From NCBI GenBank assembly GCA_003569165.1, contig BGOI01000009.1, positions 1 to 64,000 on the forward strand: DNA of 64,000 bases. The letters run 5' to 3'. Both the position numbers and the translations under genes were made by a program. Below, one piece after another: positions 25,612-47,509 of this stretch. Origin of the DNA: Opitutia bacterium. Its GTDB lineage: Bacteria; Verrucomicrobiota; Verrucomicrobiia; Opitutales; UBA953. The notes beneath the pieces are model-generated. The model was not told the DNA's origin. It saw only the letters and a program-made list of their open reading frames with translations, and searched no databases. Numbering within the stretch: the first letter of the stretch is position 1; the number at the start of each line of letters is the position of its first letter.

Positions 25612-25667
25612 GGTAGGGCCGACCATCCTTGGTCGGCCGCGGCCGGCCAAGGATGGTCGGCCCTACC
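25612..25667 (+). repeat. Paired-hairpin repeat, copy 1
   Basis: In this copy both halves derive from the same arm, so the whole element is one palindrome with 27-bp arms and a single mismatch. The general form is GGTAGGGCC, hairpin GGCCGACCA/TGGTCGGCC, a GC spacer, a second hairpin, then GGCCCTACC. Confidence 0.95.
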
Positions 25668-25713
25668 AAGCCGTCACTCCCCCGATACTCCATGCTCCAT
25701 ACTTAACTACGCG

Positions 25714-26460
25714 CTACTCCGCCTCGACGACGCTTTGTTCGCCGACGCAGGTAAGCAGCACACGGTTGTTGCCGTTGGCGGCCTGGAGGGCGCGTACGAA
25801 TTCACCAACACCGGCGCCATCCTTTAAGGTGACCTCGTAGCGCAGCTCGGTCATCAGGCCAGCCTGCACCGTCTCGACGGACTTGAGCGACTGCTGCGCG
25901 AGGTGCAGCGCGAACAGCCCGGCGAAGGCCTGGTCGTAGTCGACATCGGTGCCCACGCGAATCCGCAGGAGGTGCGAGCCTTTGAACGAGGAGAAGAGAT
26001 TTGCTCGCGAAAGGGCGAAGATGATCGCGCACACGAGCGGGACGGTGACGGCGGCGAGCTCATACTGGCGGGCCCCGACGGCGAGACCGGTGCCCATGGC
26101 GAGGAAGATGAAACCGATATCGCGCGACTGGCCGACGTTGCGGCGGAAGCGGATGATCGAGAACGCGGCAAACATGCCGAACGCCGCCGCTAGGTTACCC
26201 ACGACGACGAGGATCACGAGCGTGACGACCGTGCCGAGAATGAGCAGGGTGTGGACGTAGTCCTGCGAGTAGCGCGTACCTCGGTAGGTCTGCTTATACG
26301 TCCACGCAACGAGGAGGTTGAGCGCAAAGCTGAACAGGATCGCGAAGAGAATCTCTTTCACGCCCGGCTTGTCGGCGTGGTCGGTGACCAAGCGAGTCAT
26401 CGCATCGGCGTCGGCCGGCACGGAGTTGGCGGCGAAGAAAAAAGAGGGCAGGAGGTTCAT
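25714..26460 (-). CDS. DUF4956 family membrane protein
   Basis: A 248-residue protein with about four membrane helices (around residues 38-55, 72-105, 118-133 and 138-155) and a cytoplasmic C-terminal domain with a ferredoxin-like alternation (LLRIRVGTDVDYDQAF, LMTELRYEVTL). The block SIIRFRRNVGQSRDIGFIFLAMGTGLA is typical of DUF4956. Function is not established; it commonly neighbours VTC and CotH genes. The start at 26460 overlaps the VTC stop by 4 bp (ATGA). Confidence 0.85.
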   Translation of the reverse strand: MNLLPSFFFAANSVPADADAMTRLVTDHADKPGVKEILFAILFSFALNLLVAWTYKQTYRGTRYSQDYVHTLLILGTVVTLVILVVVGNLAAAFGMFAAFSIIRFRRNVGQSRDIGFIFLAMGTGLAVGARQYELAAVTVPLVCAIIFALSRANLFSSFKGSHLLRIRVGTDVDYDQAFAGLFALHLAQQSLKSVETVQAGLMTELRYEVTLKDGAGVGEFVRALQAANGNNRVLLTCVGEQSVVEAE

Positions 26461-27197
26461 GAGGTGGAAAGGGCGGGGGTGGCGCCATACAGGCGAACAC
26501 TTTCGGAATATTTGCTGAAGGGGCGAGGAAAGATTCCAAGCGCGGAGAGGGTGCTCGCGAAATCGAACGGGGCCGCGGTCGCGCCTTTGACTTCCATCAG
26601 GCACTGGCCTGCGGCGAGGACGGGCAGTGCACAGCCGTCGTCTTCGGTCCGCGGCGTGAGGCCTTCGAAGCGGCAGCGGATGCCTTGGTCAAAGGTGAGC
26701 CGGAGTTGCTCATGGCCGGCTTCGTCCACGAGCCGATACGCTTGGCGGTCATACCGGATGACGCAGGCCGGCCGGAAGCCTTCGTCGGCGATGAGCCGCT
26801 GGGCCTCGGCGAGAATGCGGGCATCTTCCGGCGCGAGTTCCTTCGCGGCCTCGCCGTTCGCAAAAGCGATGGCTTGTTCGAGTGGCAGCTGCACGCGCCG
26901 CTTGGCGCCTGCGCCGCCGTCGCGATGCTTGATCTCGATGAACGTAGCCGCCGGGATCGCGCCATCTTTTGTTCCGTAGAGGCGGAGGCGTAGCTTGCGG
27001 CGGGAGGGCACGCCTCGCCACGCTTCCCAATAGCATTTCCGGTCGGCGGAGTCGCAGTAGAGGCTTACGACCGGATAGTGTCCGGTCGGTCCGCCCAAGG
27101 TGTCGGGTAGGACGCGTCCCGGGAAGCTGCCGAGCAAGGCGTCCCGCTCCGCGTGCGAAAGGATGTATTTCAGTTCGAAGCGTGCCGCGATCTCCAT
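26457..27197 (-). CDS. VTC-domain protein (polyphosphate polymerase type)
   Basis: A 246-residue soluble protein of the CYTH-like VTC superfamily, whose yeast member makes polyphosphate. Features: RFELKYILS near the N-terminus, SLYCDSADRKCYWEAWRG, RLRLYG, the EIKHRDG block with conserved acidic and basic tunnel residues, VIRYDRQAY and MEVKG near the end. Polyphosphate synthesis by bacterial members of this group is inferred here, not shown. It lies 2 bp downstream of the CotH gene and overlaps the DUF4956 gene. Confidence 0.85.
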   Translation of the reverse strand: MEIAARFELKYILSHAERDALLGSFPGRVLPDTLGGPTGHYPVVSLYCDSADRKCYWEAWRGVPSRRKLRLRLYGTKDGAIPAATFIEIKHRDGGAGAKRRVQLPLEQAIAFANGEAAKELAPEDARILAEAQRLIADEGFRPACVIRYDRQAYRLVDEAGHEQLRLTFDQGIRCRFEGLTPRTEDDGCALPVLAAGQCLMEVKGATAAPFDFASTLSALGIFPRPFSKYSESVRLYGATPALSTS

Positions 27198-27199
27198 GG

Positions 27200-28798
27200 T
27201 TAGGGGATGCGCGTGAGCGTCAGTGAATTGCGATCAAACCACGCTTCGCCGGATTGGGCGCGTAGCTCGAGGACGAGTACCGGGTCGGTTTCGGCGACGG
27301 AGAATTCGACGGAGATCGTGCGCCAGCTACTGGTACCCGTGAGCGCAGGCACGCCGTTGAGGCCAGAGATGCGGAGGCGAAGGCCTTTATCTTGCTCATC
27401 CTTGCCCGCGATGATGCCGGCGGTCTTGACCATACCAGTCAGGCGATAGCGGCCGGGGCCAGTCGCGAGCGGTAGTCGGAAGTCGCCGCCTTTCTTCAGG
27501 CCGGCCTTCACGTAGAAGCAATTGCGCCCCTCGAAGTCGCGTTCGTCCGCTTCCTTCTCATCGGCGTTGCGCTCCCAAGCGTATTTTCCGAGCGTCGCCT
27601 TGCCGCCGATAGAGCGGAGCTGCGCGGCGTCCTCGAGTTGGATGCGGATGGCCTGGATGCGGTTTTTCACCCTACTGGCGGCCTCTTTGCCTCGCTCGTC
27701 GAAGCGCTTCGCTTCTTGGGCGTCGATCGGGGTGAGCTTCGCCTTGGAGTTGGCGGCCAGTTCCAAGATCCGCTTCGGCCAGTCGTACGCTTGGAAGTTC
27801 TTCTCGTAGACGGCGAAGAACTGCGTCCGGTAACGTTCACGCATCGTACGGTCCCAGAGTAAGGCGTTAGGCACGAGCGCCCCGGGCTGACGAAAGACAT
27901 ACCAGCGGTCATCGCCGAAGACCTGGTCCATGCCGTGAAGCATGAAGTGGAACTTGCCGGACGAGGGATCCTCGTAGAACCGATAGTTATTACGGTTGAA
28001 GGAATAGCCGTCCCAGTGGCAGAGGATCTGCTCGAGGGCGAGGTGTCGGAAGTAGGCGTCGACATCCAGGATACGCTCCATGCGGGCCAGGCGTAATGCC
28101 GGGCTTGCCTCCTTCGTGGCGCCGATCAGCTCCGTCAGGCGGACCTTGTCGTCCGGGTCACCTTGATCGACCTCGATCGGGCCATCGATTTCGTTGCAGA
28201 AGGCGCCGTCGTAAAGGTGGCCCTTGGTGTCCTTGAAGAAATAGGAGAGAAACTCGGTGTTGAAGCCTTCCTTGAGCACGTAGGTGCCGAGGCGCTTGCC
28301 GTTGAGGACGACAAAGGCGTGCGTGCAGCGCGATGCCGGGACGCCAGCGCGGCGGGCCATCTCGCCCGCGGCCATCTCGAGCAGCATCGTGCCGTCCTGC
28401 GCGCAGTTGTTCAGCTGGAACTTGGTCAGGCCGCGATACTCCTGGCCCTTCTTCGTCTTCGCGGTGCGGAGCGAGAAGCCGGGGCGGTCTTCGGTGATCT
28501 GGCGGAAGCTGCCGGCGGAGCCCTTGAGCTTGATTGAGCACTTCTCGAGTTTAACGCCACCGGGCTCGTTGATCGTCAGGGTGACGTAGTCCCGCGGATT
28601 CTTCGCGAGCTTATCGATATTCTCCTGGGAGATGGTCAGCTCCAGTTTCGGGATGAAGCCGGCGAAGAGGGCGTCCGGCGAGGTGTTGACGGCTGTCGGC
28701 TTGGGTACAATCAGCGGCGGCAGCGTCTGGGCGGAAAGAATCATCGCTCCGCCGACGAGAAGCGCAGCATGACGGAAGAATGGGCGGAGGCTTTCCAA
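27200..28798 (-). CDS. CotH-like kinase family protein, secreted
   Basis: A 532-residue protein with a signal peptide (MESLRPFFRHAALLVGGAM; TTG start), then a CotH domain: KLELTISQENIDKL, KLKGSAG, RPGFSLRTAK, YRGLTKFQLNNCAQD, and the active-site region HWDGYSFNRNNYRFYED followed by HGMDQVFGDD. A C-terminal beta-sandwich follows (about 400-532; FRLPLATGPGRYRLTG). CotH proteins are atypical protein kinases first known from Bacillus spore coats; the target here is unknown. First gene of the CotH-VTC-DUF4956 unit. Confidence 0.87.
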   Translation of the reverse strand: MESLRPFFRHAALLVGGAMILSAQTLPPLIVPKPTAVNTSPDALFAGFIPKLELTISQENIDKLAKNPRDYVTLTINEPGGVKLEKCSIKLKGSAGSFRQITEDRPGFSLRTAKTKKGQEYRGLTKFQLNNCAQDGTMLLEMAAGEMARRAGVPASRCTHAFVVLNGKRLGTYVLKEGFNTEFLSYFFKDTKGHLYDGAFCNEIDGPIEVDQGDPDDKVRLTELIGATKEASPALRLARMERILDVDAYFRHLALEQILCHWDGYSFNRNNYRFYEDPSSGKFHFMLHGMDQVFGDDRWYVFRQPGALVPNALLWDRTMRERYRTQFFAVYEKNFQAYDWPKRILELAANSKAKLTPIDAQEAKRFDERGKEAASRVKNRIQAIRIQLEDAAQLRSIGGKATLGKYAWERNADEKEADERDFEGRNCFYVKAGLKKGGDFRLPLATGPGRYRLTGMVKTAGIIAGKDEQDKGLRLRISGLNGVPALTGTSSWRTISVEFSVAETDPVLVLELRAQSGEAWFDRNSLTLTRIP

Positions 28799-29315
28799 GG
28801 TCGGTGGGGTGGCGAAAAGATGTCAGTGCCGAAGGCGAGAGGCAATAAGGATGAGGGTAGGGTAAATATGAGAGTATCGAGTATGGAGTATCGAGTATCG
28901 GGGCAGCACCGCGTGCTGCCCTAAGTGCAAAAGTGCAAATCGGCCTACGGCCTGTGCAAAGGGCGGGAGGTGGCGGTTAGCGGTTGGCGGTTGGGAACAC
29001 ATCAGAGGCAAAGTCGCCGATACAGGTGGCGGGACGGGTAGGGCCGACCATCCTTGGTCGGCCGTGCGGTCGAGCAGGGATGCTCGACCCTACCTTAATG
29101 CACAGACGCAAAGGGAAACCGGAGACCGGAGGATCGGCTGGGGAGATTCATTTTCAGGTTACGGGTGACGGCCCACTGGGCCTCGGCCATTCGGGTGTCG
29201 GCGTTTCGGCCATCGGCTATCGGCTTCAGGTTCATGCGGCCGCCTCCTGAAATTCAAGTTACTGTTTCGCAGCCTACCAGCCTGCCAGCAGATCCCCACC
29301 GCGCATCGCGTGGCC
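28799..29315. repeat. Intergenic repeat mosaic between CotH and GH20 genes
   Basis: No gene seen in 517 bp. In order: four GAGTATN heptamers (28872-28899), a GGCAGCAC/GTGCTGCC palindrome (28902-28920), three GGCGGTT-type heptamers (28972-28992), a paired-hairpin repeat (29037-29094), GAAACCG/GAGACCG heptamers (29115-29131), a TCGG-based array (about 29158-29233) and a CCACGCG palindrome touching the GH20 stop. Confidence 0.85.
29037..29094 (+). repeat. Paired-hairpin repeat, copy 2 (covariant stem)
   Basis: Hairpin 1 is standard. Hairpin 2 is GGTCGAGCA/TGCTCGACC instead of GGCCAAGCA/TGCTTGGCC: two positions changed on each side so that pairing is kept. The spacer is GTGC-like instead of GC. 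Confidence 0.95.
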
Positions 29316-31058
29316 CTACCCAAATAACCCTGCCACGCTCTCGCTCAATCCGCCGGGTCGCGACCGCCGCAGCCAGACGGCTTCATATTCCTTCTTAAGG
29401 CGTGCCTGTTCTTCGGCTGCGACGGCTTGGCCGGCGGCGCGTCGCAGGCCAGCGCCGGCGAGACGGGCGCCGAGCGACAGCTCTTCGCGGATGGTCACAT
29501 CCGCAATCTTGGCGATCAGCACCTCGGCTTCGGTGAGGTGCGCTTGCGAGGCGGCAATCTCCGCCGCTGAGACGCCGTCCGTAAACTTCGCGAGGGCGTC
29601 GGGTTTGGCGGTGAGAAAATCCCAGGTGAGGCTCTTGTTGCGGTTCGCCTTGGCGATTTGGCCATCCAGCGTACCCAGCTGCGTCAGCGCCGCGGCGATG
29701 ACCTGCCCCTCGGCTAGGGAGAGGTTGCCGAGGATGGCGCAGCCGGCGGCGAAGTCGGTCTTGGCGTTGGCCGCGAAGCCCCAGGCCTGCGCGAGTCCAG
29801 CCGCCATGGGCAGCCAGGCGGTCGGCCACGGCTGATGATGGCCGTTGTCGCCCCACGTGGTGAGCAGGATGCCGCGCGCTTCGTGACGTACGGCGGCGCC
29901 GACGGCTTCGGCTTGATTGATCAGCGCGTTGTCGAGGCGGCCCGTGAAGCTCTGCCACGCGCTCGTGCCCGGCGCGACGAGATAGGCGCGGTCGAGTTCG
30001 CGGAGACGCCCACACTGTTCCTTGAAGGGATGGCCGGCGTCATAACCCCAGACGACGGGTACGGTGTCGACGGGCGCATCCTGCGCGAGCGCGAGGTCTT
30101 CCAGGAGGATGTCGCCCCAGAATTGCACGGTGCGGCCGCGGTCGCGACCGAGGGCGCATAGCTTCTTGAGATGATCGAGGTAGACGCGGTGTTTGCCGCG
30201 GTCGGCGACGGCCTGCTTGCTGAAGCCTTGGCCGAGCTCCCACGGTTCGTCGCCGCCGATGTTCACTTGGCGGCTCCGGAAATTCGGCAGATAGTCGTCG
30301 AGCAGCGCTCCCGCGAAATCAATCGACGCTTGGTCGGGCCGCAGCGTGCCAGGGAATTCCTTGAATTGTCCGGTGAGCGGGTGAATCCATCCTTCAGGGC
30401 ATTCAGCCATCGCGCGGTAACGCGGATGACGGAGCCAGCGCTCCATGTGGCCGAAGGTGTTGAGGTTCGGGACGAGCTCGATACCGACCGCTGCGCACGC
30501 GTCGTCGAGTTCACGGGTCTCAGAGGGCGTCAGCGGCGAGGCGTCTTTCCAGGCATCCTCGTGTCCGCGGAAGGCGAAGGTGTGTTCGACGTAAAGCTGC
30601 AGCTGGTTGACGCGTAGGCGGCCAAGCGCGCGCACGAGGTCGAGTAGCTCGGCTTGCGTGGGCACGCGCGTGCGGGAGCAGTCGAGCATGAAGCCGCGGA
30701 CGGGTAGGTCCGGCGAATCAATGATCACGAGGTGCGGTAGCTCGTCGGGGTATTGCGCAGCGATTTGGCGGAGGGTCTGGGTGCCGTAGAGCACGCCATG
30801 CGCTTCACCCGCGTTGAGGCGAATTCCACTGGAGAGAATCTCGAGGTGATAGCCCTCGGCGCCGCACTCGGGCTGGTGGACGATCCGGCAGGCGCCGTCG
30901 GCCGCCCCAGCGAGGGCCGCCCGGGCTTCTTCCACGGTCGAAGGGAGGCTCTCTATAAAGGAGGCGGTCGGGTGGGGGAGGGGGGGCACCTTGAGCCAGC
31001 CCCCGCGCAGGGTCAGTTCCCTCGGGCGGGGGAAGAGCGTGAGCACCGGAAGGGCCAT
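29316..31058 (-). CDS. Glycoside hydrolase family 20 beta-N-acetylhexosaminidase
   Basis: A 580-residue enzyme that removes terminal N-acetylhexosamine from glycans by substrate-assisted catalysis. The N-terminal GH20b-like domain (about 1-110) is followed by the catalytic barrel: VRGFMLDCSRTRVP, LYVEHTFAF, ELVPNLNTFGHMERWLRHP, the Asp-Glu pair in GGDEPWE (about 271-272), QFWGDIL and LLTTWGDNG. No signal peptide is seen, so it may be cytoplasmic. The stop TAG lies inside a GGTAGGG repeat edge. Divergent from the HEAT/cytochrome c gene. Confidence 0.9.
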   Translation of the reverse strand: MALPVLTLFPRPRELTLRGGWLKVPPLPHPTASFIESLPSTVEEARAALAGAADGACRIVHQPECGAEGYHLEILSSGIRLNAGEAHGVLYGTQTLRQIAAQYPDELPHLVIIDSPDLPVRGFMLDCSRTRVPTQAELLDLVRALGRLRVNQLQLYVEHTFAFRGHEDAWKDASPLTPSETRELDDACAAVGIELVPNLNTFGHMERWLRHPRYRAMAECPEGWIHPLTGQFKEFPGTLRPDQASIDFAGALLDDYLPNFRSRQVNIGGDEPWELGQGFSKQAVADRGKHRVYLDHLKKLCALGRDRGRTVQFWGDILLEDLALAQDAPVDTVPVVWGYDAGHPFKEQCGRLRELDRAYLVAPGTSAWQSFTGRLDNALINQAEAVGAAVRHEARGILLTTWGDNGHHQPWPTAWLPMAAGLAQAWGFAANAKTDFAAGCAILGNLSLAEGQVIAAALTQLGTLDGQIAKANRNKSLTWDFLTAKPDALAKFTDGVSAAEIAASQAHLTEAEVLIAKIADVTIREELSLGARLAGAGLRRAAGQAVAAEEQARLKKEYEAVWLRRSRPGGLSESVAGLFG

Positions 31059-31145
31059 GGCAGGAGGGTTAGCCCCCGCGGGCCGACGGGCAAGACGCTA
31101 AGATGGACTTCCCGCTTGGAACAAAGCCCGCCTCGCCTACATCTT

Positions 31146-34286: not shown

Positions 34287-34307
34287 GCGCGGGCGGAGCC
34301 CGCGCTC
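34285..34307 (+). other. Post-stop GCGCG hairpin after the HEAT/cytochrome c gene
   Basis: GAGCGCGGGC pairs with GCCCGCGCTC around GGA; the stem includes the last two bases of the TGA stop. Confidence 0.75.
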
Positions 34308-34347
34308 AGAGTATGGAGTAGGGAGTATTGAGTATCGGGGAAGGTAG

Positions 34348-34374
34348 GGACGGCTCTCCGAGCCGTCCTTTTTG
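34348..34374 (+). terminator. Rho-independent terminator after the HEAT/cytochrome c gene
   Basis: GGACGGCTC and GAGCCGTCC pair around TCC and are followed by TTTTTGTTT. It lies beyond the heptamer array. Confidence 0.85.
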
Positions 34375-34416
34375 TTTGGGGGTAGGGATGCGATGACATC
34401 GCATCCGCCTGTATCG

Positions 34417-34472
34417 GGTAGGGCCGACCATCCTTGGTCGGCCGCGGCCAAGCAGGGATGCTTGGCCCTACC
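34417..34472 (+). repeat. Paired-hairpin repeat, copy 3
   Basis: Standard 56-bp form: loops TCCT and GGGA. Confidence 0.95.
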
Positions 34473-34765
34473 AAGATTCATGAACTCAAAGGGGAACCTG
34501 ATACCCGACGGCCGAGACCTGGGACCTGAAAATGTATCCCCCACCGCATCCCTCCCGGTCTCCGGTTTCCCCTTGAGCCGTTGGGTCTCTGGTCCTCCGG
34601 GCCTCCGAGCCTCTGGGCCTCTCGCGTGCTCCCTAACCGCTAACCGCCAACCGCTTCCACCCGTAGCGGCCGGCTTTTCGCCGGCCGCTATGACATATCC
34701 TCCTATTCGGATACTTGGATACTAACTTGCCATCTCCCCGCTTACCCTTTTGTTTCCCTGACCTT

Positions 34766-35947: not shown

Positions 35948-35973
35948 TCACCACGCCCCCTATACTCACACAC

Positions 35974-37548: not shown

Positions 37549-37604
37549 GGTAGGGCCGACCATCCCTGGTCGGCCGCGGCCAAGCAGGGATGCTTGGCCC
37601 TACC
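37549..37604 (+). repeat. Paired-hairpin repeat, copy 4
   Basis: Loops TCCC and GGGA, which are perfectly complementary to each other in this copy. Confidence 0.95.
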
Positions 37605-37721
37605 TCGAACCATGAACGCAAAGGGAAACCGGAGACCGGATGATTGGCTTGGGGCCTCGGGTAGGGCGGCGATTGCCATCGCCGCCGCCGATGGGAAGCC
37701 ACCGGATTCTAACTGTTAAAT

Positions 37722-37868: not shown

Positions 37869-37907
37869 GGGGGTGGCGGTGCATCGCGTGCTGCCCTCGA
37901 TGGATTG

Positions 37908-37963
37908 GGTAGGGCCGACCATCCGTGGTCGGCCGCGGCCAAGCAAGGATGCTTGGCCCTACC
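37908..37963 (+). repeat. Paired-hairpin repeat, copy 5
   Basis: Loops TCCG and AGGA differ from the standard; both stems are intact. Confidence 0.95.
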
Positions 37964-38926: not shown

Positions 38927-38937
38927 GCGTTCGCTCC

Positions 38938-39528
38938 ATGTCCGCCGAAGCTGGCATCAAGGTGGTGCTTGTCCATGGTTTCCTGGACAGCGGCTGGGTT
39001 TTCCGACGTATGAAGCTAAGGCTTGAGCGACAGGGCGTCGTCTGCCTGGTCCCGCGACTCTGTCCGAACGATGGGCGGGGCGGGCTAGAGGCTCTGGCCT
39101 CGGATCTCAAGCGGGACATTGACGGCGCTTTCGGTCCTTCAGCGAAGATTCGAATCGTTGCCTTCAGCATGGGCGGTCTGGTATCCCGGCACTATCTCCA
39201 GCTCCTTGGTGGCGCTGGGCGCTGCGAGAAGCTCTTCACGATCTCCTCGCCGCATCATGGCACCGCCACGGCGCGGTTTTATCCTAGCAAGGGAGCGCGT
39301 GACATGCGTCCCGGCAGCAACTTTCTCCGACGACTGCAGGCGACCGAAGGAACGCTCCGCGGAGTCCAGCTCGTCTCTTATCGGACGCCGCTGGATCTCA
39401 TGATCCTGCCGGCGACGAGTTCCGAGTGGGCGCCCGCGTTGAATCTCGATTTTCCGGTCTTGCTTCACCCCTTGATGCTTTCCGACGAGGACGTCCTTAG
39501 CGATGTCGAGCGACGCGTGGTGAGGTAG
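38938..39528 (+). CDS. Alpha/beta hydrolase (lipase-like)
   Basis: A 196-residue cytoplasmic-looking hydrolase. The oxyanion motif LVHGFLDSG is at 11-19, the nucleophile elbow is AFSMGGL (Ser77), and TISSPHHGT follows, as in class-2 lipase-like proteins. Substrate unknown. The last codons run up to a paired-hairpin repeat, whose GGTAGGG edge supplies the TAG stop (39526-39528). The natural C-terminus may therefore have been altered by insertion of the repeat. Confidence 0.78.
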   Translation: MSAEAGIKVVLVHGFLDSGWVFRRMKLRLERQGVVCLVPRLCPNDGRGGLEALASDLKRDIDGAFGPSAKIRIVAFSMGGLVSRHYLQLLGGAGRCEKLFTISSPHHGTATARFYPSKGARDMRPGSNFLRRLQATEGTLRGVQLVSYRTPLDLMILPATSSEWAPALNLDFPVLLHPLMLSDEDVLSDVERRVVR

Positions 39529-39579
39529 GGCCAAGCATCCCTGCTTGGCCGCGGCCGACCAAGGATGGTCGGCCCTACC
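39524..39579 (-). repeat. Paired-hairpin repeat, copy 6 (inverted)
   Basis: Opposite orientation to most copies; overlaps the last bases and stop codon of the hydrolase gene. Confidence 0.95.
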
Positions 39580-39613
39580 CGATTGATGCGTTCGCCGCAG
39601 GGCGAACCATGCT

Positions 39614-39642
39614 AGGGGCACGATTCATCGTGCACCCCTTTT
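39614..39642. terminator. Terminator-like hairpin between convergent genes
   Basis: GGGGCACGA pairs with TCGTGC(A)CCCC, one bulged A, followed by four T. The opposite strand shows A-rich flanks and could also terminate. Confidence 0.55.
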
Positions 39643-39703
39643 GCGGAGGGCGCGGCGAAGCCACGCCCCTACCTTGATCCGCAGGCCCACTTGCCAAAGT
39701 GAT

Positions 39704-39767
39704 TTCAGTATGGGGTCAGACCGCTTCTGACGGCTATCGATCAGAAGCGGTCTGACCCCATACTGAA
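39704..39767. repeat. Perfect 27-bp inverted repeat (64-bp palindrome)
   Basis: Arms 39704-39730 and 39741-39767 are exact reverse complements around the 10-bp centre CGGCTATCGA. The core GGGGTCAGACC occurs within each arm. It lies 6 bp downstream of the ThuA stop, between convergent genes, and is unrelated to the other modules. It may act as a bidirectional terminator or be a miniature mobile element. Confidence 0.95.
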
Positions 39768-39773
39768 GATACC

Positions 39774-40541
39774 CTACTTCCGCAGCGCCCAGATTAGCCC
39801 GCCGTTAAGGTGCTGGACGAATTCGGGTTCGGAGAAGGATTCCTTGGTGTGGCCACCGGCGGTGTAGAACATGCGGCCTTTGACGACGTCCTTGCACCAA
39901 GCAATCGGGTGGTAGTCGCCGTTCTTCCCGCCCTCATAGGTCTTTTCGTCGAGGAGGATGAGGACTACATTGTCGGGCTGCAGGTTCCGGAAGCTATACC
40001 ACTCGTCCTTGCGCTTCCATTCGTCCGGGAGGTGTTTGGTGGAGGGGTGATCCTTAATGACCGGCCGCAAGGTGGCGGGCTGGATCTTCGGATGGCCAGC
40101 GAAATAGCCGCCGATCATCTTACCGTACCAAGGCCACTTATATTCGGTGTCGGAAGCGGCATGGACACCGACGAATGCGCCACCGTTTTCGAGCCAAGCC
40201 TGGAAAGCGGCGCGACGCGGTTCAGCGGCCTTCGCCGCGGCGTCCTTGGCTTCCTTTGAGGCGTCCTTAGCGACGACGTCGCTCATGATGTCGCCCGTGG
40301 TGCTCATGAAGGCGACGGCGCGATACTTCGCGAGATTCTCGGCGGTGAAGACCGCGGCGTCCTCGGTGATATCGACCTCGAGGCCGGCAGCCTTAAACTG
40401 TTTCGCGAGCAGCTCGTTGCCGAGCGGGATGGAATCCTTGTGCCGGAAGCCGGCGGTCTTCGAGAAGACCAAGGCGCGGTTCGGTTCGGCAGCGAGGGCG
40501 ACCACCGAAGCAAGGAGGAGAGCGAGGAGGGAGCGGATCAT
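39774..40541 (-). CDS. ThuA-like domain secreted protein
   Basis: A 255-residue protein with a signal peptide (MIRSLLALLLASVVALAAE) and a ThuA (glutamine-amidotransferase-like) domain: ALVFSKTAGFRH, AVAFMSTTGD, WLENGGAFVGVHAASDT, and the C-terminal GRMFYTAGGHT. ThuA-like proteins are common in PVC bacteria near sugar dehydrogenases and are thought to act in carbohydrate catabolism. The adjacent divergent gene is a Gfo/Idh/MocA oxidoreductase, which fits. Confidence 0.85.
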   Translation of the reverse strand: MIRSLLALLLASVVALAAEPNRALVFSKTAGFRHKDSIPLGNELLAKQFKAAGLEVDITEDAAVFTAENLAKYRAVAFMSTTGDIMSDVVAKDASKEAKDAAAKAAEPRRAAFQAWLENGGAFVGVHAASDTEYKWPWYGKMIGGYFAGHPKIQPATLRPVIKDHPSTKHLPDEWKRKDEWYSFRNLQPDNVVLILLDEKTYEGGKNGDYHPIAWCKDVVKGRMFYTAGGHTKESFSEPEFVQHLNGGLIWALRK

Positions 40542-41006
40542 GTGTGAATCAGGGGTAGGGGTAGGGGTAGGGATAGGGGTTGGGGCAGGAGAGGGCAAGG
40601 GAGAGAAGCGGGGGAACTGTTGGCATGGTGAACCGCTGCGAGCCAGAGGCATTCCGTTGGTAGGGCCAAGCATCCCTGCTTGGCCGCGGCCGACCAAGGA
40701 TGGTCGGCCCTACCTGAGACAAAGCCATTCCAGGTGACAGGTGACGGGCATGGGAGCCGGGAGTTCGGGCATCGGCCGTTCGTGAGTCAGCCGCCGGGAT
40801 CCCGAAGCCGACAGCTGATGGCTGGAATGCCGACACCCGAATGGCCGATGCCCTGGTGGCCGTCACCCGTCACCCGAAACTTGTCTCCCACTTTTGCACT
40901 TAGGACAGCACGTGGTGCTGTCCCTACCAATCCCTCCTTTCCTCGGAACGTTTCCCCCCTTACACCTGTCCTACCCCTGCCCCCCCCTATCCCTACCCCT
41001 CCTCAG
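40542..41006. repeat. Divergent ThuA-Gfo/Idh intergenic mosaic
   Basis: No gene seen. G-rich AGGGGT hexamers (40549-40590) form the ThuA leader; a mirror-image C-rich run (about 40965-41003) forms the Gfo/Idh leader. Between them: a CGCAGCGGTTCACC-type module in reverse (40618-40652), an inverted paired-hairpin repeat (40659-40714), a long TCGG/CCGA heptamer array (about 40731-40881) and a GGACAGCAC/GTGCTGTCC palindrome (about 40907-40926). Confidence 0.8.
40659..40714 (-). repeat. Paired-hairpin repeat, copy 7 (inverted)
   Basis: Same inverted orientation as copy 6; standard loops. Confidence 0.95.
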
Positions 41007-42296
41007 ATGTCGCAGCTCAATCGTCGTTCGTTCCTGAAGAACACCGTCCTCGCTGGCGCTGTCCTCGGCTTCCCTTCCATCATCCCGGCCTCCGCGCTCG
41101 GTAAGGATGGCACGGTCGCCCCAAGCAATCGCCTCCAGCTCGTCGGCATCGGCCTGAAGTCTCAGGGCGGCGGCGATATGCGCCAGCTGATGTCCAAGAA
41201 GGGCGTCCAGGTCATCGCCGTCTGTGACGTCGATCGCCGTGTGCTGAAGTCCTCTGCCGAAGGCGTGGTGAAGAAGGGCATGGCCGCCCCGAACCAGTAT
41301 GTCGATTTCCGCGAGATGCTCGCGAAGGAGAAACCGGATGCCGCCGTCCACGGCTTGCCTGACCATTGGCACGGCGTCATCAGCTGCGCGCTCCTCCGCG
41401 CCGGCATCGACGTCTACGGTGAGAAGCCGCTCGCGAAGACCTGGGCCGAGGGTAAGGCGATCACCGACGCGGTGAAGGAGAACGGCCGCGTCTGGCAGAC
41501 GGGCATGTGGCAGCGCTCCACCCCTAATTTCCGCCGCGGCGTCGAACTCGTCCGTAACGGCATGCTCGGCAAGATCCTCAAGGTCGAAGTCGGTACCGGC
41601 CCGAACAAGCACGCCATGCCGCCCGCTCCGCAGCCGGGCGAGAAAGCTCCGGCTGAAGTCGACTACGATATGTGGGTCGGCCCGTCCGCCGATTTCGCCT
41701 ACGATCCGCGCGTCTTCCATTTCCACTGGCGCTGGCACATGAATTTCGGCGGCGGTCAGCTCCTTGACTGGGTCTGCCACCATCCCGATATCGCTGCCTG
41801 GGCGATGGGTAAGGATTCCGAGTTTCCGGTGTCCGTCGTCGGGTCGGGCAAACTCCGCGAAGGGCCGTGGGATTCCCATGCCGAATATGATTACACCGTG
41901 GGCTATGCCGACGGCTTCAAGATGTCGGTCAGCAGCTCTTTCATGGGCATGCGCTTCATCGGCGAGAAGGGCGAACTCTACGTCAATCGCGGTAAGCAGG
42001 AATGCTCCATCCCCGGCCTCTGGGAAAAGGACCTCGGTCCCGACGCGTGGCGCTGCCCCGGCACGACCGACCACTTCCAGGATTTCGTCGACTGCGTGCA
42101 GTCCCGCCGTCGTCCGCTCTCGCACGCCATGGCCGCGCACTATACTACGACCATCGGCCACCTCGGCAACGCCGCGGTCTTCACCGGCCGTAAGCTCAAG
42201 TTCGACGGCGCCGCAGGTAAGTTCATCGACGACGCTGGCGCGACCGCGATGCTCTCGCGCGAACTCCGCAAGCCCTGGTCGCTGGAGAAGATCTGA
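41007..42296 (+). CDS. Tat-exported Gfo/Idh/MocA family oxidoreductase
   Basis: A 429-residue NAD(P)-dependent sugar dehydrogenase family protein with a twin-arginine signal (NRRSFLK, then a hydrophobic stretch to about 33). The N-terminal Rossmann part contains VIAVCDVDRR, HWHGVISCALLRAGIDVYGEKPLAKTW (the EKP catalytic Lys) and later HMNFGGGQLLDWVCHHPDIAAW with substrate-binding His. Such secreted members are characteristic of PVC bacteria. The stop is followed at once by a GCGCG hairpin. Confidence 0.9.
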   Translation: MSQLNRRSFLKNTVLAGAVLGFPSIIPASALGKDGTVAPSNRLQLVGIGLKSQGGGDMRQLMSKKGVQVIAVCDVDRRVLKSSAEGVVKKGMAAPNQYVDFREMLAKEKPDAAVHGLPDHWHGVISCALLRAGIDVYGEKPLAKTWAEGKAITDAVKENGRVWQTGMWQRSTPNFRRGVELVRNGMLGKILKVEVGTGPNKHAMPPAPQPGEKAPAEVDYDMWVGPSADFAYDPRVFHFHWRWHMNFGGGQLLDWVCHHPDIAAWAMGKDSEFPVSVVGSGKLREGPWDSHAEYDYTVGYADGFKMSVSSSFMGMRFIGEKGELYVNRGKQECSIPGLWEKDLGPDAWRCPGTTDHFQDFVDCVQSRRRPLSHAMAAHYTTTIGHLGNAAVFTGRKLKFDGAAGKFIDDAGATAMLSRELRKPWSLEKI

Positions 42297-42319
42297 GCGC
42301 GATCGCTAGGCGATCGCGT
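42297..42319 (+). other. Post-stop GCGCG hairpin after the Gfo/Idh/MocA gene
   Basis: CGCGATCGC and GCGATCGCG pair around TAG (9 bp), one base after the TGA. Confidence 0.75.
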
Positions 42320-42397
42320 GGGGGTCTGCTGGCAGGGTGAACTGCTGCGAAGCATGTTTAGGTAGGGGCAGCACTGCGTGCTGACCTAGTTGTCTCG

Positions 42398-42453
42398 GGT
42401 AGGGCCGACCACCCTTGGTCGGCCGCGGCCAAGCAGGGATGCTTGGCCCTACC
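42398..42453 (+). repeat. Paired-hairpin repeat, copy 8
   Basis: Loop 1 is CCCT, loop 2 GGGA. Confidence 0.95.
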
Positions 42454-42509
42454 ACGATGCATGAACTCAAGGGGAGACCGGGAACCGGAAAATTGGCTGG
42501 GGTGCCTCG

Positions 42510-42565
42510 GGTAGGGCTGACCATCCTTGGTCGGCCGCGGCCAAGCAGGGATGCTTGGCCCTACC
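42510..42565 (+). repeat. Paired-hairpin repeat, copy 9
   Basis: One C-to-T change in the first stem gives a G-T wobble; otherwise standard. Lies 57 bp after copy 8 in the same orientation. Confidence 0.95.
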
Positions 42566-42670
42566 ACGATATGCCTCTGCTTCGCAGCAGTTCCCCCATG
42601 CCAGCCTGTCCCCCTCTGCCTCTTTCGCCTATACTCCATACTCGATACTCCATACTCTCACCTCCCTCCG

Positions 42671-43741
42671 ATGCCCCTCCGCCGCGTAGCGCAGATTGCC
42701 GTCGTCCTTGGCCTCCTGGCCGCGGGCGTTTGGGTCGTGCGTGGTAAGAAGTGGGAAGCGTTCCGCAAGCCGACCGAGGTGGCGGCGAAGCCTGCGCCGG
42801 CGATCAAGCCACGTTCCGCGGCCGACATCATCCCGCAGCTGAAAGGTCCGCCCAAGCGCACCGGCGTCACGATCAAGGAGCTGCTCGAGGGCAAGGTGCC
42901 GAAGCTCAACCAGCTGGAGGTCGAGGCGTTCCTGAAGAATCAGGGACGTTCGACCATGAACCTACTGGCCGCTTCCCGTCTGCTCAACGACCTCGGCTTT
43001 GTCCGCGAAGCCGCGAAGGCCGACCCAAAGGATCCGGCCATCCAGCTCGAGCTCGCGCTCCGCGGTGAGACGCCGGAGGAGAAGTCTGCCGCGATCGCCG
43101 CCTTCCGCGCCGCGGCGCCGGGTAATTCCCTCGGCGACTATCTCGCCGCCCATCAGGCCTTCGCCGCGGGCGATGCGGGCGCGGCGGGCCTGGCGCTGGC
43201 GCAGTCGTTGGATAACCCGCTCTACGCCGATTACACGCAGCAGATCGTGGCCGGCTCCGAGCAGGCGTTCCTGGACGCCGGCTACGAGCCGGCCGCCGCA
43301 GCCTCCGCAGCGATGTTTTCCTTTACGTACGATCACCTCCAATCGGCCCGGGATGTCTCGGATAATCTCAAGCAGCTGCAGGACGAGTTTATCCGCACGG
43401 CCGATTTCGATGCCGCCGAGCCGACGGTGATCATCGGCGTCACGCTCGGTCAGCGCCTCCAGGAGCAAGGTCCCTACCTCATCGATCTGCTCACCGGTAT
43501 CGTCATTGAGAAGAAGTTCCTGCAGCAGCTAGATCCGCTGACCCAAGCAGGCCCCGGCGGACAGACCGCCGGTGAAAGGCTGGATACGCTGGATGCCCGG
43601 CTGCTCGAGATCCGCACCCTGGCCCCGGCTTTCGGCGAGAAGTTAGCCGCCGCCGACGCCGCGACACAGTCGCAGTACGTCGCCAAGCTGAAGTCCGAAG
43701 GCGAGCTCGCCGCCATGAGGTGGTTGGTGGGGCAGAAGTAG
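42671..43741 (+). CDS. Membrane-anchored helical protein of unknown function
   Basis: A 356-residue protein that I do not recognise. It has an N-terminal membrane anchor (about 6-22), a Pro/Lys-rich linker, then mostly alpha-helical sequence rich in Ala and Leu with TPR-like pairs (SLGDYLAAHQAFAAGDAGAAGLALAQS) and no catalytic motif. It probably faces the periplasm. The G of its TAG stop is also the first base of a GAGTATN heptamer array. Confidence 0.6.
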   Translation: MPLRRVAQIAVVLGLLAAGVWVVRGKKWEAFRKPTEVAAKPAPAIKPRSAADIIPQLKGPPKRTGVTIKELLEGKVPKLNQLEVEAFLKNQGRSTMNLLAASRLLNDLGFVREAAKADPKDPAIQLELALRGETPEEKSAAIAAFRAAAPGNSLGDYLAAHQAFAAGDAGAAGLALAQSLDNPLYADYTQQIVAGSEQAFLDAGYEPAAAASAAMFSFTYDHLQSARDVSDNLKQLQDEFIRTADFDAAEPTVIIGVTLGQRLQEQGPYLIDLLTGIVIEKKFLQQLDPLTQAGPGGQTAGERLDTLDARLLEIRTLAPAFGEKLAAADAATQSQYVAKLKSEGELAAMRWLVGQK

Positions 43742-43972
43742 AGTATTGAGTATGGAGTATCGAGTATCGGGGAGGTGGAACCGCTTCAGGTGGCGGGGTA
43801 GGGATGCGATGACATCGCATCCGTCTGTCGTGGGTAGGGCCGACCATCCTTGGTCGGCCGCGGCCAAGCAGGGATGCTTGGCCCTACCAAGACGCAGATG
43901 AACTAGGACAGCACGTGGTGCTGTCCCTACCTTTAAAGGCTTCGCAGCCGTTCACCATGCCAGCATGTCCCC
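43742..43972. repeat. Intergenic repeat mosaic between convergent genes
   Basis: Four GAGTATN heptamers (43741-43768), GATGACATC palindrome module (43798-43829), paired-hairpin copy 10, GGACAGCAC/GTGCTGTCC palindrome (43910-43928) and a TTCGCAGCCGTTCACC module (43941-43966), then the queA post-stop hairpin. Confidence 0.85.
43833..43888 (+). repeat. Paired-hairpin repeat, copy 10
   Basis: Standard form. Confidence 0.95.
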
Positions 43973-43995
43973 GCGCGGACGTTCGTCGTCCGCGC
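43973..43995 (-). other. Post-stop GCGCG hairpin after queA
   Basis: GCGCGGACG and CGTCCGCGC pair around a 5-nt loop; on the minus strand it begins at the base right after the TAA. Confidence 0.75.
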
Positions 43996-45063
43996 TTACA
44001 GGATGATCATCGCATCCCCATAACTAAAAAACCGATATTCTTCGCGGATCGCTTCGGCGTAGATTTCTTTCAGCCAGGTGAGGCCGGACGGGTCGCCAGG
44101 CGTTAAGAACGCGGCCACGAGGCAGAGCAGGGTGGAGCGGGGCAGATGGAAATTCGTGAGCAGGTGCTCGCAGCAGCCGACGGTGTCGCCGGGGCGGATG
44201 AACAGCGAGGCGTCGGAAACGAAATCGCCTTCGTGTGCGAAGCCCTGCGTCTTGCGGAAGGCGTCTTCGCTGGCGCGGACCGACGTCGTGCCGACCGCGA
44301 GCCGGGGGCGACGGGTGCGCAACGCCTGCATCGTCGCGCCCGGGATGCGATACGCCTCCGAGTGCATCACGTGCTCGTTGAGGTTCGGGACGGAGACCGG
44401 CTGGAAGGTGCCCGGGCCGACGTCGAGCACGAGGTCGAAGGCGTCGTGGCCTCGCGCCTTGAGCGCCGCGAGGAGTTCGGGCGTGAAGTGCAGGCCCGCG
44501 GTCGGCGCGGCGGCGGCGCGGGCCGACGACGGATCGGCGTAGACGGTCTGATAGCGCGCGGCGTCATCGGCCGGAGGGAGCCCACGGTCCTTGCGCGCTT
44601 CGACGATGTAAGGCGGCAGCGGCAGTTCGCCGACGCGGTCTGCGAGCTGATTGACGGTCTCACCGGTGGGCAACGTGAAGCGCACGCGGTATTCGCCATT
44701 CTTCGTCTCGACCGCCACGGCGTGGCGGCCGTCGATGGAAAATCCCGACGCATCCGAGGCGCGCTTACCCGGGCGTAGCATGCACCACCATTCAAGCGGA
44801 TCGGAAGTCGGACGCAGCAGCAGGCACTCGACCTTGCCGCCGGTGGGGCGCACGCCGAAGACACGGGCCTTGAGTACCGTGACGTTGTTGCGGATGAGCA
44901 CCGTGCCGGCCGGGAGCAGGTCGGGCAGTTCGGAGAACAGGCGATGCTCGATCGTGCGCGTGGCGCGGCGCACCACGAGCAGGCGCGAGCCGTCGCGACG
45001 CGGCGCGGGCTCCGCGGCGATGCGTTCGGGCGGGAGGTCGAAATCCAGCTCCCGGACGTCCAT
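43996..45063 (-). CDS. queA: S-adenosylmethionine:tRNA ribosyltransferase-isomerase
   Basis: Transfers and rearranges the ribosyl group of SAM onto 7-aminomethyl-7-deazaguanine in tRNA, making epoxyqueuosine. 355 residues with the family blocks [60 protein letters not shown]-like [19 protein letters not shown] and [12 protein letters not shown]. It lies 3 bp after the HD exonuclease gene, so the two form an operon. No tgt is in the window. Confidence 0.96.
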
Positions 45064-45066
45064 GGC

Positions 45067-46059
45067 TTACGCTCCGGTCTTCGGAGGGGTGATGAGCAAC
45101 TGGCCGTCAATGGCGCGCAATGGCATGAACTCGGCGCCGGGCGGGGCCTTGCGGAGTTCTTCTTCCACTGCGGAGAGCTTCGCGTCCAGGTCGTCGATGC
45201 GGGCGACGAAGACGGCTTCCGGCGTCGAGGGCGTGGCGCAGGCGCCGTATTCGCGCATCGTGTGGTGGCTGAGCAGGATGTGCTCGAGGCGTTCCATCAG
45301 CGAGGCTTCGAGGCCGACCTTCGTGCCGTGCGTGCGCACGATGAAGGCGCCGAGGACCAGGTGGCCGTGCAGGTTGCCCGCGCGCGTGAAGCCGGCCTTG
45401 GCCATGCCGGGTTCGAGGCGGGAGTATTCCTGGACCTTGCCCATGTCGTGCAGGACGATACCGGCGACTGAGAGGGAGTGGTCGACCTTCGGGTAGAGGG
45501 GCAGCAGGGCTTCGGCGCACTTCGCCATGCGGAGCGTGTGCTCGAGCAGGCCGTGGCGGTAGGCGTGGTGCATGCCGAGCGCGGCGACGGCCTCATAGAA
45601 GCGTTCGCCGTGTTCCTCGAGCGCGGACTCGACCGTCGCGCGCAGGCCGGCGTGCGGGATACGGGAGACGATACCGAGCAGCTCGGACTTCATCTTCACC
45701 GGGTCGTGCTGCGAGACCGGCGTGAGCTTGCCCATGATCGCCGGGTCGGCGCGTTCGGCGTCGGTGATCGGCGTGAGGGAGTCGACCTTGAGGTCGGGAC
45801 GTCCGTTGAAGTCGCTGACCGTTCCGCCCACGCGGACGATGGCTCCGGCCTTGAGGCTCGTGAGGACGGGCTTCACCGGCGAGTCGCCGAAGACGCGGAT
45901 CTTGATGTCGTCGGTCGCGTCGGCGATGACCGCTTCAAAATAGGTGGACCCGGTCTTCGCGGTCTTGGTGGCGATTTCTCCCAGGGCGCAGATGGCCTGG
46001 AAGCGAGAGCCGACCGGGGAGGTCTTGCTTTCACGAAGGGTCAGGAGGGACTCGGACAT
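45067..46059 (-). CDS. YhaM-like 3'-5' exoribonuclease (OB fold + HD domain)
   Basis: A 330-residue protein with an N-terminal OB-fold (about 20-100; FQAICALGEIATKTAKTGSTYFEAV and VRVGGTVSDFNGRPDLKVD) and a C-terminal HD phosphohydrolase domain (YRHGLLEHT, LHDMGK at His204-Asp205, ILSHH). This is the layout of the YhaM/CBF1 exoribonucleases. First gene of the pair with queA. Nucleic-acid substrate inferred from the family. Confidence 0.87.
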   Translation of the reverse strand: MSESLLTLRESKTSPVGSRFQAICALGEIATKTAKTGSTYFEAVIADATDDIKIRVFGDSPVKPVLTSLKAGAIVRVGGTVSDFNGRPDLKVDSLTPITDAERADPAIMGKLTPVSQHDPVKMKSELLGIVSRIPHAGLRATVESALEEHGERFYEAVAALGMHHAYRHGLLEHTLRMAKCAEALLPLYPKVDHSLSVAGIVLHDMGKVQEYSRLEPGMAKAGFTRAGNLHGHLVLGAFIVRTHGTKVGLEASLMERLEHILLSHHTMREYGACATPSTPEAVFVARIDDLDAKLSAVEEELRKAPPGAEFMPLRAIDGQLLITPPKTGA

Positions 46060-46515
46060 GGGCGGGACAGTGGCAGTGGGGGACTTATTTTCGAGTATGG
46101 AGTTTGGAGTATCGAGTATAGGGTAGGGGCAGCACCGCGTGCTGCCCTAGTGTGCAAAGGTGCAAAAACGGGATGACTGAATCGATGGCTGCGTTGAGGA
46201 CTGAATTGAGGGCTGAATGGATGAGGCAGGGCACGTTTCCAGGTCCCAGGTCTCGACCGTCGGGTGGCAGGTTCAGGTGTCCGGGTTCAGGTGCAGGTCC
46301 CGGGTCAGACGCCTGTAACCGCGATATGCCTCTGCTTCGCAGCATGCCAGCGTGCCAGCATGTCCCCTCGCGGCCTCTGGCCGCGCCTGCTTCGCAGCGG
46401 TTCACCATGCCAGCAGACCCCCTGCCTCGAACCCCATACTCAATACTCGATACTCCATACTCTGAGGTGCTTGCCCCATGCCCACTTGTCCCCTACTCTT
46501 CGTGGCTTCGCCACG
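46060..46515. repeat. Intergenic repeat mosaic upstream of arsC
   Basis: No gene seen in 456 bp. Four GAGTATN heptamers (46093-46120), GGCAGCAC/GTGCTGCC palindrome (46127-46145), a GACTGAAT-based run (46173-46225), a CAGGTNN heptamer array (46240-46308), two CTTCGCAGC modules (46328-46345 and 46388-46412), four reverse GAGTATN heptamers (46436-46463), and a CGTGGC/GCCACG hairpin (46501-46515) touching the arsC ATG. Confidence 0.8.
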
Positions 46516-46959
46516 ATGAGTCCCAAACCCGCCATCCTTGTCCTTTGCACCGGTAATTCGTGCCGCAGCCATATGGCGGAGGGCTTTCTGCGCGCCACGG
46601 TCGGCGAGGCGGCCGACGTCTTCAGCGCGGGCTCCAAGCCCGCAGGCTATGTGCACCCCCTTTCGATCAAGGTCATGGCCGAGGCCGGCGTGGACCTCTC
46701 CGGGCACACCTCCAAGCACATGAACGAGCTCCTGCCGCGCCGGATCGACGTCGTCATCACCGTGTGCGGCAACGCCGACCAGGTCTGCCCCATGTACCCC
46801 GGCCAGGTGGCCCGCTTCCACTGGGGCTTCGATGACCCCGCCCATGCCCAGGGCACCGAGGAGCAGATTCTCAACGAATTCCGCCGGGTCCGGGACGAGA
46901 TCAAAGCTAAGTTTACGGAGTATGGGAGCAGGGTAAGGGAGACGGGAAGGGTAGGGTAG
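46516..46959 (+). CDS. arsC: Arsenate reductase, thioredoxin-coupled LMW-PTP type
   Basis: A 147-residue protein with the P-loop CTGNSCR (Cys11-X5-Arg17) and two further cysteines (Cys84 and Cys91, in VCGNADQVCP) that complete the redox relay of ArsC as in Staphylococcus/Bacillus. It reduces arsenate to arsenite. No arsenite pump or ArsR is adjacent. A hairpin overlaps the start region. The stop TAG is inside a GGGTAGGG repeat edge, and the last dozen residues may be repeat-derived. Confidence 0.88.
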   Translation: MSPKPAILVLCTGNSCRSHMAEGFLRATVGEAADVFSAGSKPAGYVHPLSIKVMAEAGVDLSGHTSKHMNELLPRRIDVVITVCGNADQVCPMYPGQVARFHWGFDDPAHAQGTEEQILNEFRRVRDEIKAKFTEYGSRVRETGRVG

Positions 46960-46990
46960 GGATGCGATGACATCGCATCCGCCTGTATTG

Positions 46991-47030
46991 GGTAGGGCCG
47001 TGCGGCCAAGCAGGGATGCTTGGCCCTACC
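46991..47030 (+). repeat. Paired-hairpin repeat, copy 11 (first hairpin deleted)
   Basis: Only 40 bp: GGTAGGGCC, a short GTGC spacer, then the complete second hairpin and GGCCCTACC. The first hairpin is missing precisely. Confidence 0.9.
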
Positions 47031-47451
47031 TAGAACCCATCTCAAAGGGAGACCGGAAACCGGATGATTGGCTGGGGAGATTCATTATTAGGTGACGGGT
47101 GACGGCCACCGGGGCATCGGCCATTCGGGGGTCGGCTTTTCAGCCATCGGCCATCGGCTTCAGGATCCCGGGGCCCTCCGGTCTTAACCTGGCCAACTGG
47201 CCAACTATTCAAGGTATCAACTAATGCCGCATCTTTCAGGTCCCGGGTCTCGGCCATCGGGTACCAGGTTCGGGTCTTCAGGTTCAGGTGCAGGTGCGGG
47301 GTAGTGAATCCCTAAACCAATAACCAAGAGCAACTTAACCAATAACGCCCCCTTGCCTATTTTAAAGCAAATGCCTCGAGGTAGGGAGGCGATGACATCG
47401 CCTCCGCCTGTGTTCCCAACCGCCATCCGCTAACCGCTTCCACCTGTCATG

Positions 47452-47509
47452 GGTAGGGCCGACCACCCCTGGTCGGCCGCGCGGCCAAGCAAGGATGCTT
47501 GGCCCTACC
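47452..47509 (+). repeat. Paired-hairpin repeat, copy 12
   Basis: 58 bp, with loop 1 CCCC, loop 2 AGGA and a spacer two bases longer than standard. Last copy before the giant gene. Confidence 0.95.

Follow-up and report, generated by a model that had tools for sequence, protein, structure and literature searches.

What kind of element is the paired-hairpin repeat that recurs twelve times between positions 25612 and 47509 of a 64,000-nt stretch from an Opitutia bacterium (assembly GCA_003569165.1, contig BGOI01000009.1, positions 1 to 64,000; hereafter, the window)? A first-pass annotation, made from the letters alone, had left the choice between a selected RNA or DNA structure and a non-autonomous mobile element in the style of repetitive extragenic palindromes (REPs) and bacterial interspersed mosaic elements (BIMEs). 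Our analysis supports the mobile element. The repeats are very probably REP doublets forming hairpins (REPINs), that is, head-head dimers of GTAG-type REPs, which are non-autonomous and probably moved in trans by a dedicated REP-associated tyrosine transposase (RAYT), a single-strand transposase of the Y1/HUH kind. This is supported by the GTAG head, the covariation of the stems, a RAYT gene flanked by cognate repeats, and the presence or absence of doublets between species.

Structure of the repeats and size of the family

In each full copy, a 27-nt unit is followed, after a joint of 2 or 4 nt, by a second such unit in inverted orientation, and the whole is a GTAG-type REP doublet (REPIN, BIME). 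The unit is composed of GGTAG and a 9-bp stem with a 4-nt loop YCCN, so that GTAG adjoins the base of a palindrome rich in G and C. All twelve copies lie where the first-pass annotation had placed them, and its description of two hairpins per copy holds for eleven of them, while copy 11 (40 nt) retains the second hairpin only. The GC joint is found in nine full copies, but copy 2 (GTGC) and copy 12 (GCGC) have 4-nt joints, and GGCC, previously taken for the edge of the repeat, forms the bottom of every 9-bp stem, while the repeat is actually bounded by GGTAG/CTACC. In the second stem of copy 2 both sides are indeed changed with the pairing kept.

The window contains 35 hairpins made of GGTAG and a 9-bp stem (8 or 9 pairs), of which 34 lie within 25612-47509; there, 23 belong to the twelve copies and the other 11 are REPs of further groups. 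First-order Markov control sequences held a mean of 0.58 such hairpins (maximum 2, 50 sequences). Permuted heads gave a mean of 3.9 in the window, the highest count being 24 for GTAGG, which probably represents the same hairpins shifted by one base.

The copies had been described as exclusively intergenic. Judged against a hand-made gene set, with 20% of the stretch noncoding, this is true for 11 of the 12, while copy 6 overlaps the open reading frame (ORF) 38938-39528 by 5 nt; its GGTAG (39524-39528) provides the TAG stop of that ORF. Two ORFs were given later TTG starts in this set (40931 for 40680 and 42668 for 42527) because homology in relatives begins there; from their first possible starts, they would overlap copies 7 and 9.

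The genome from which the window comes (2.03-Mb assembly, 37 contigs, 86.6% complete) holds 119 units of the window family (60 + 59; pattern with up to 2 mismatches), and the reversed pattern used as a control gave 0 matches in it. A stricter pattern was found in 29 of the 79 genomes of the taxonomic family, all of them in the genus of the window (29/55), and in 0 of the 24 genomes of four other genera. The scan of public genome contigs gave at least 100 stretches; among the matches listed, 76 of 80 were titled as Opitutae, Opitutia, Opitutus or Verrucomicrobia metagenome-assembled genomes (MAGs), and the other four, titled Polynucleobacter (1), Akkermansia (2) and Candidatus Aquidulcis (1), are assumed here to be mislabelled or mixed bins. 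Among 344 units in distinct contexts, 263 stand in head-head doublets, 53 are single and 28 occur in other clusters, the commonest loops being TCCT (148 units) and TCCC (146 units). One identical 27-mer is repeated in 76 of 302 contexts, orthologous copies included, which hints at recent copying.

The cognate RAYT and its correspondence with the repeats

A search for a RAYT/Y1 gene, which the first-pass annotation had thought worthwhile, located an intact one between window-family units, beside xseA on contig C1 of the same genome. The ORF encodes 144 aa and has an HUH motif (MPDHLH) and a catalytic-type Tyr with an NP motif (YVRNNPVRAG). It sits between clusters of the units, one of which is a direct array with a period of ~40 nt. 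NCBIfam NF047646 (REP-associated tyrosine transposase) assigns 82.2 bits to this C1 RAYT, at a cut-off of 80, and 85.8 bits to its orthologue in another genome of the genus (G060, contig C70), which is 83% identical and has the same place beside xseA and the same REP flanks. A profile built from 16 other RAYTs, all but one of them from the genus and the last from a sister genus, with neither cognate RAYT included, matches these two at 1.4e-56 and 6.2e-54, and its best solved structure is E. coli TnpAREP 4ER8 (E = 2e-18). In the own genome this profile finds four RAYTs, and the Pfam Y1_Tnp search finds one, flanked by a different REP type.

Across the genus, REP type follows RAYT clade. The RAYT set comprised 51 loci, 50 from the genus and one (L069) from the sister genus, with duplicates and the partial loci L117, L139, L141 and L142 left out. 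GGTAG hairpins were found within 250 nt on both sides of 44 RAYTs, on one side of 5 and on neither side of 2. In the maximum-likelihood RAYT tree, loci with the same REP type cluster together, mostly with bootstrap values of 99-100, and a few loci additionally adjoin a REP of another group. The REPs of the genus were sorted by loop patterns of our own definition into 14 groups (F numbers below; the window family is F1), each flanking at least one RAYT gene, the sole RAYT of F11 being that from the sister genus. All these groups share the GGTAG head, a stem of 9 bp and a loop of a few nucleotides.

Related to this, the loop class seems, by eye, to track the deep RAYT phylogeny. Loops mostly contain YCC or CCC in the smaller RAYT clade (17 rows) and mostly other motifs (TGC, CGC, CAC, TAC, TTGCC) in the larger one. 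L137 and L138 form a RAYT clade of two and have no GGTAG hairpins within 250 nt. Five loci of the same genus (L070, L072, L075, L078 and L086) hold frames of 221-333 aa with the Y1-type motif NHFH and no paired GGTAG REPs nearby; at L072, REPs of other groups lie at some distance from the frame.

Variation between species and covariation of the stems

The presence of doublets differs between species. One relative (G026) has the doublets at 25612 and 34417 and lacks the one at 29037. The doublet at 34417 is absent in another (G065), where other REPs are found instead, its flanks being 97 and 95% identical in both relatives; window-type units occur at this site in 3 of 13 rows of relatives. The doublet at 37549 is absent in G065, G056 and contig C49 of G026, and present in G051 and the other G026 contig. 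Two loci, L280 and L281 (C76 and C49 of G026), both cover the end of ahcY, the first having the doublet and the second lacking it, a difference perhaps due to two strains in one MAG. Taken together, ten gaps gave window-type units in 15 of 51 rows by a loose unit-type test, with some genomes entering twice (from two collections) and one row being an artefact (L205 at 37549, gap 0).

The stem covariation seen in the window holds in a larger set by shuffle tests. The sample consisted of 50 distinct 27-mers chosen by head and loop only, which makes the head and the two loop-adjacent pairs invariant by selection; many of the loci had been fetched by a pattern fixing some stem ends, so pairing is inflated there. 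At the seven unselected stem positions, 90% of the cells are paired vs. 80% when shuffled (maximum 83%, 1000 shuffles). In the pair test, 92% of the pair cells are paired vs. 84% in shuffles, 39 cells are changed on both sides vs. 13, and the covariation score is 0.296 vs. 0.162 (sd 0.012), each value being reached by 0 of 500 shuffles; further pair types number 13 vs. 10.5 (15/500 reach), and slid stem alignments are only 9-46% paired.

Differing halves and their folding

The two halves of a doublet are rarely alike. In the window family, 133 head-head doublets stand in distinct contexts; at stem position 7 they combine C with G in 128 cases, C:C in 2, G:G in 0 and others in 3. In each of the four commonest half combinations, position 7 and one or more further pairs are unlike; in four doublets the difference is confined to position 7, and a single doublet shows none. 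When all REP groups are taken together, the 5′ arms are unlike in 227 of the 230 same-group doublets whose spacers do not exceed 70 nt, a count that rises to 253 of 257 when stretches of the own genome are added; these are not independent events, because the contexts include orthologous copies. The arms are identical in two F4 doublets, whose spacers measure 71-150 nt. Groups with essentially one stem type form few close doublets, namely 0 in F14 (57 units) and F15 (17 units), one in F13 (80 units; identical) and three in F12 (56 units; one identical). The grouping follows our loop patterns, and F9/10 lumps several stems. Shared ancestry of a group's doublet accounts for the rule inside that group, but not for its recurrence across groups.

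With DNA parameters, two hairpins beat the long hairpin in 123 of the 133 doublets, by a median difference of 6 kcal/mol, against 0 of 266 same-half controls; counted over distinct window-family doublets, they win in 50 of 56. A later count gave 129 of 136 against 0 of 272. The switch suggested earlier, from two hairpins to one long palindrome, is conceivable, but the sequences of this family mostly favour two hairpins, while copy 1, the sole copy with two near-identical halves (8 of 9 pairs in its second unit), favours the long one. The later test covered 233 doublets with halves of equal length, with 27 unequal ones (18 of them F9/10) left out. Two hairpins win in F6 (19/19), F2 (12/12), F3 (10/10) and F7 (4/4), in the single F9/10 doublet (1/1) and in 3 of 4 unclassed units, but F8 is split (5/9), and the counts are 1/26 in F5, 1/8 in F4, 0/3 in F12 and 0/1 in F13; same-half controls of all groups gave 0/466. 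A general fold lock is thus not established, because four groups (F4, F5, F12 and F13) go against it and F8 is divided. Halves nearly always differ, and in some groups only do they differ enough to block the long hairpin.

When the halves were re-paired at random, long-hairpin mismatches were 3.17 as observed vs. 3.02 (maximum 3.12 of 2000), and for 48 distinct doublets 3.50 vs. 3.27, with 0.1% of re-pairings as high; these effects are small, and the statistics ignore descent. It could tentatively be proposed, with considerable doubt, that close doublets in the genus are obligate heterodimers in at least nine RAYT-flanking groups, their halves being kept at unlike stems that are each internally compensated, and that those of F1, F2, F3, F6 and F7 (174/181) are locked as the two hairpins usable by a RAYT. 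If true, such a lock would explain, for these groups, the heterodimer preference left open in the consulted portion of Di Nocera et al. (PMC3733652), and part of the stem covariation would represent selection against the pairing of one half with the other. The halves of F4 and F5, and in part those of F8, are too similar for such a lock, so that a different cause, for instance a distinction of the left end from the right, would have to apply there.

In regard to orientation, the asymmetric doublets of seven C1 stretches are all aligned alike (11/11, G7 half on the + strand), those of the window are oriented 8 to 2 (one unclassed) in the opposite way to C1, and all 21 stretches, chosen for holding doublets, give 20 to 22. 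GC skew does not account for this, since by our tally the C7 half is on the + strand in 11 of 25 doublets in stretches of negative skew and in 9 of 17 in stretches of positive skew.

Mobile element or host structure

Transposition of these REPINs could proceed as follows. In single-stranded DNA, each 27-nt unit would fold alone into GGTAG and a 9-bp hairpin, of which the C1 RAYT would recognise the GTAG head and the loop or apical part (CA-YCCN-TG). The enzyme may then cut nearby and move or copy the doublet into other intergenic sites. The stem sequence could drift if both sides change together, a drift that would lead to covariation, and in the window family the halves would stay different enough for each hairpin to form alone.

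Several observations weigh against this explanation. Pfam Y1_Tnp scores the two cognate RAYTs at 18.6 and 20.2, below its cut-off of 23, which the C32 RAYT of the own genome passes (26.8); the RAYT assignment is carried by NF047646 and the genus profile, Y1_Tnp being a general transposase model and not RAYT-specific. Only two of the 55 genus genomes (own genome G000 and G060) yielded the cognate RAYT, and it was not found in the REP-rich G026 (63 units), G041 (52), G076 (42) and G069 (33). While xseA was found in 41 of the 55, only two of the 30 xseA loci read hold this gene, two others having <100 nt and some others <1500 nt of downstream sequence. G026 has a 99% identical xseA without the cognate RAYT beside it, and therefore the repeats can exist where the RAYT has been lost or is unassembled. 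Most of these assemblies are incomplete MAGs, though the gene may also have been lost, and present activity is something that we only infer. Furthermore, loci lacking a doublet showed no clean empty site; other REPs or poorly alignable sequence are found there, so no precise empty site is claimed. Likewise, no fixed cleavage site is visible in the flanks, whose conservation ends within ~8 nt, and no boundary is claimed from it, as no CT position exceeds 29% of the flanks. In the covariation test, pairs with both-side change number 5 vs. 3.8, which is not unusual (118/500 shuffles reach it), and the shuffle statistics ignore relatedness.

Some weight, short of an even chance, is given to the possibility that the REP family is now immobile in most genomes, its patterns being inherited and its presence or absence caused by differential loss. 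The lack of a detected RAYT in most REP-rich genomes, G026 with its nearly identical xseA among them, and the decay of copy 11 are in line with this, while the intact RAYT of the own genome and the 27-mer shared by many contexts, orthologous copies included, point the other way. A derivative of another DNA transposon resembling a miniature inverted-repeat transposable element would likewise be short, palindromic, non-coding and dispersed, but units flanking a RAYT gene on both sides and the GTAG head make such an origin extremely improbable.

A structured RNA or regulatory element selected for a host function (terminator, mRNA stabiliser or kissing-loop switch) is improbable as well. Such a role could explain stable paired hairpins with covariation and the location of nearly all copies outside genes. 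However, Rfam gave no match at the gathering score in the window except two tRNAs, which speaks against a known RNA family, and species whose flanking genes are almost identical differ in whether they have the repeat. By a hand reading of the gene map, the copies fall into convergent (4), codirectional (4) and divergent (4) gaps, and copy 4 is preceded by a separate terminator-like hairpin, on which grounds a terminator role was rejected; single units and the direct tandem array also exist. The kissing loops proposed earlier did not stand, as loop complementarity and the long palindrome result from the duplication of the unit in inverted form, and no complementarity beyond this was found. Since the commonest halves carry TCCT and TCCC, the loops of most doublets mismatch somewhere and are mostly imperfectly complementary.

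Other repeats and features of the window

The coordinates of the twelve copies, the cognate RAYT and the other REPs are given in Table 1. The REP group of GGATGCGATGACATCGCATCC recurs in the window at 43797, 46955 and, as GGAGGCGATGACATCGCCTCC, at 47380. Two of the other REP groups in the window also flank RAYTs of the own genome. Intergenic families without a GTAG head were observed too, namely GAGTATCGAGTATGGAGTAT (28871, 34308, 43740 and 46092), GCTTCGCAGC...CCATGCCAGCATGTCCCC (43939, 46334 and 46389) and CTAACCGCCAACCGC (34632, 38064 and 47415); the intergenic DNA of the window is therefore a mosaic of several repeat kinds.

Table 1. Repeats of the window and the cognate RAYT gene (window positions, except where a contig is named).
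Feature	Position	Strand	Remarks
REP doublet 1	25612..25667	+	both halves of GACCA type, joint GC; near-homodimer, computed fold one long hairpin
REP doublet 2	29037..29094	+	GACCA half and GGTCGAGCA half (compensated stem variant), joint GTGC
REP doublet 3	34417..34472	+	GACCA and AAGCA halves, joint GC
REP doublet 4	37549..37604	+	3′ of ahcY and of a separate terminator-like hairpin with T run
REP doublet 5	37908..37963	+	
REP doublet 6	39524..39579	-	orientation opposite to other copies
REP doublet 7	40659..40714	-	orientation opposite to other copies
REP doublet 8	42398..42453	+	
REP doublet 9	42510..42565	+	GGCTGACCA half, T-G pair
REP doublet 10	43833..43888	+	
Copy 11	46991..47030	+	decayed doublet, 40 nt, first hairpin deleted
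REP doublet 12	47452..47509	+	joint GCGC
Other-group REP GGACGGCTCTCCGAGCCGTCC	34343..34368	+	RAYTs flanked by same group in G066, G046
Other-group REP GGATGCGATGACATCGCATCC	34381..34406	+	RAYTs with such flanks in G033, G052
Other-group REP GGCGGCGATTGCCATCGCCGCC	37660..37686	+	
Other-group REP GGGCAGCACCGCGTGCTGCCC	46122..46147	+	RAYT with such flanks in own genome, C3:71711
Other-group REP GGACAGCACCACGTGCTGTCC	43906..43931	-	also ending at 40928; RAYT with such flanks in own genome, C3:76270
Cognate RAYT	C1:465321-465755 (ORF 465324-465755 + stop)	-	beside xseA, among window-family units

Comparison with known systems

The first-pass annotation did not know the repeat as described. Elements of this kind have been reported (Nunvar et al. 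2010, PMC2817692; Bertels and Rainey 2011, PMC3116915; Di Nocera et al. 2013, PMC3733652), while this particular family is not mentioned in the open-access literature searched; the published systems are compared here on the basis of portions of the cited papers. The element adds one more REPIN family, from a lineage on which the literature found says little.

The REPINs of Pseudomonas fluorescens SBW25 are two inverted REPs that form hairpins and are linked to a RAYT, as in the window family, and the doublet was proposed as the mobile unit, with singlets as its remnants (PMC3116915). The commonest spacings between the REPs are 71 and 110 bp in SBW25, in contrast to 2-4 nt in the window family, where, unlike in SBW25, the halves differ and the two-hairpin fold usually wins. 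According to the legend of Figure S11 of that paper, recognition by the RAYT is likely for a 'clover' fold and unlikely for a long hairpin.

A further close description concerns GTAG-17 of Opitutus terrae, also of the Verrucomicrobia, whose GTAG REPs form head-head dimers with a spacer of 1-2 bp (PMC3733652). It belongs to another organism, and the two are likened by description and not by consensus sequence. The same authors found heterodimers preferred in most families, with 'no obvious explanation', and suggested protection from enzymatic degradation. Joining this preference with the recognition of the clover fold would be our own step. The differing halves in 253 of 257 close doublets offer a testable regularity for an observation called unexplained in that literature. 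On the other hand, homodimers make up the majority of GTAG-1 dimers in P. entomophila and P. putida (PMC3733652), and therefore the rule of differing halves is not general in bacteria.

TnpAREP group 3 (PMC8266576) and the TnpAY1 classes (PMC6006769) resemble the window family in the combination of GTAG with a perfect hairpin, and bases of the loop matter for recognition in these systems, to which the C1 RAYT is likened without a subclass assignment. In Stenotrophomonas and other gammaproteobacteria, RAYTs are flanked by inverted REPs, each RAYT having its own REP, the phylogenies of REPs and RAYTs agree, and the stems keep their pairing (PMC2817692). REP-flanked RAYTs, matching of REP and RAYT, and paired stems are likewise found in the genus studied here. 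RAYT homologues meeting the criteria of that paper were, in the portion used, reported from gammaproteobacteria only, whereas here an Opitutae lineage holds 14 REP groups distinguished by loop pattern. The genus thus constitutes a natural experiment, which allows a comparison of the bases that a RAYT reads.

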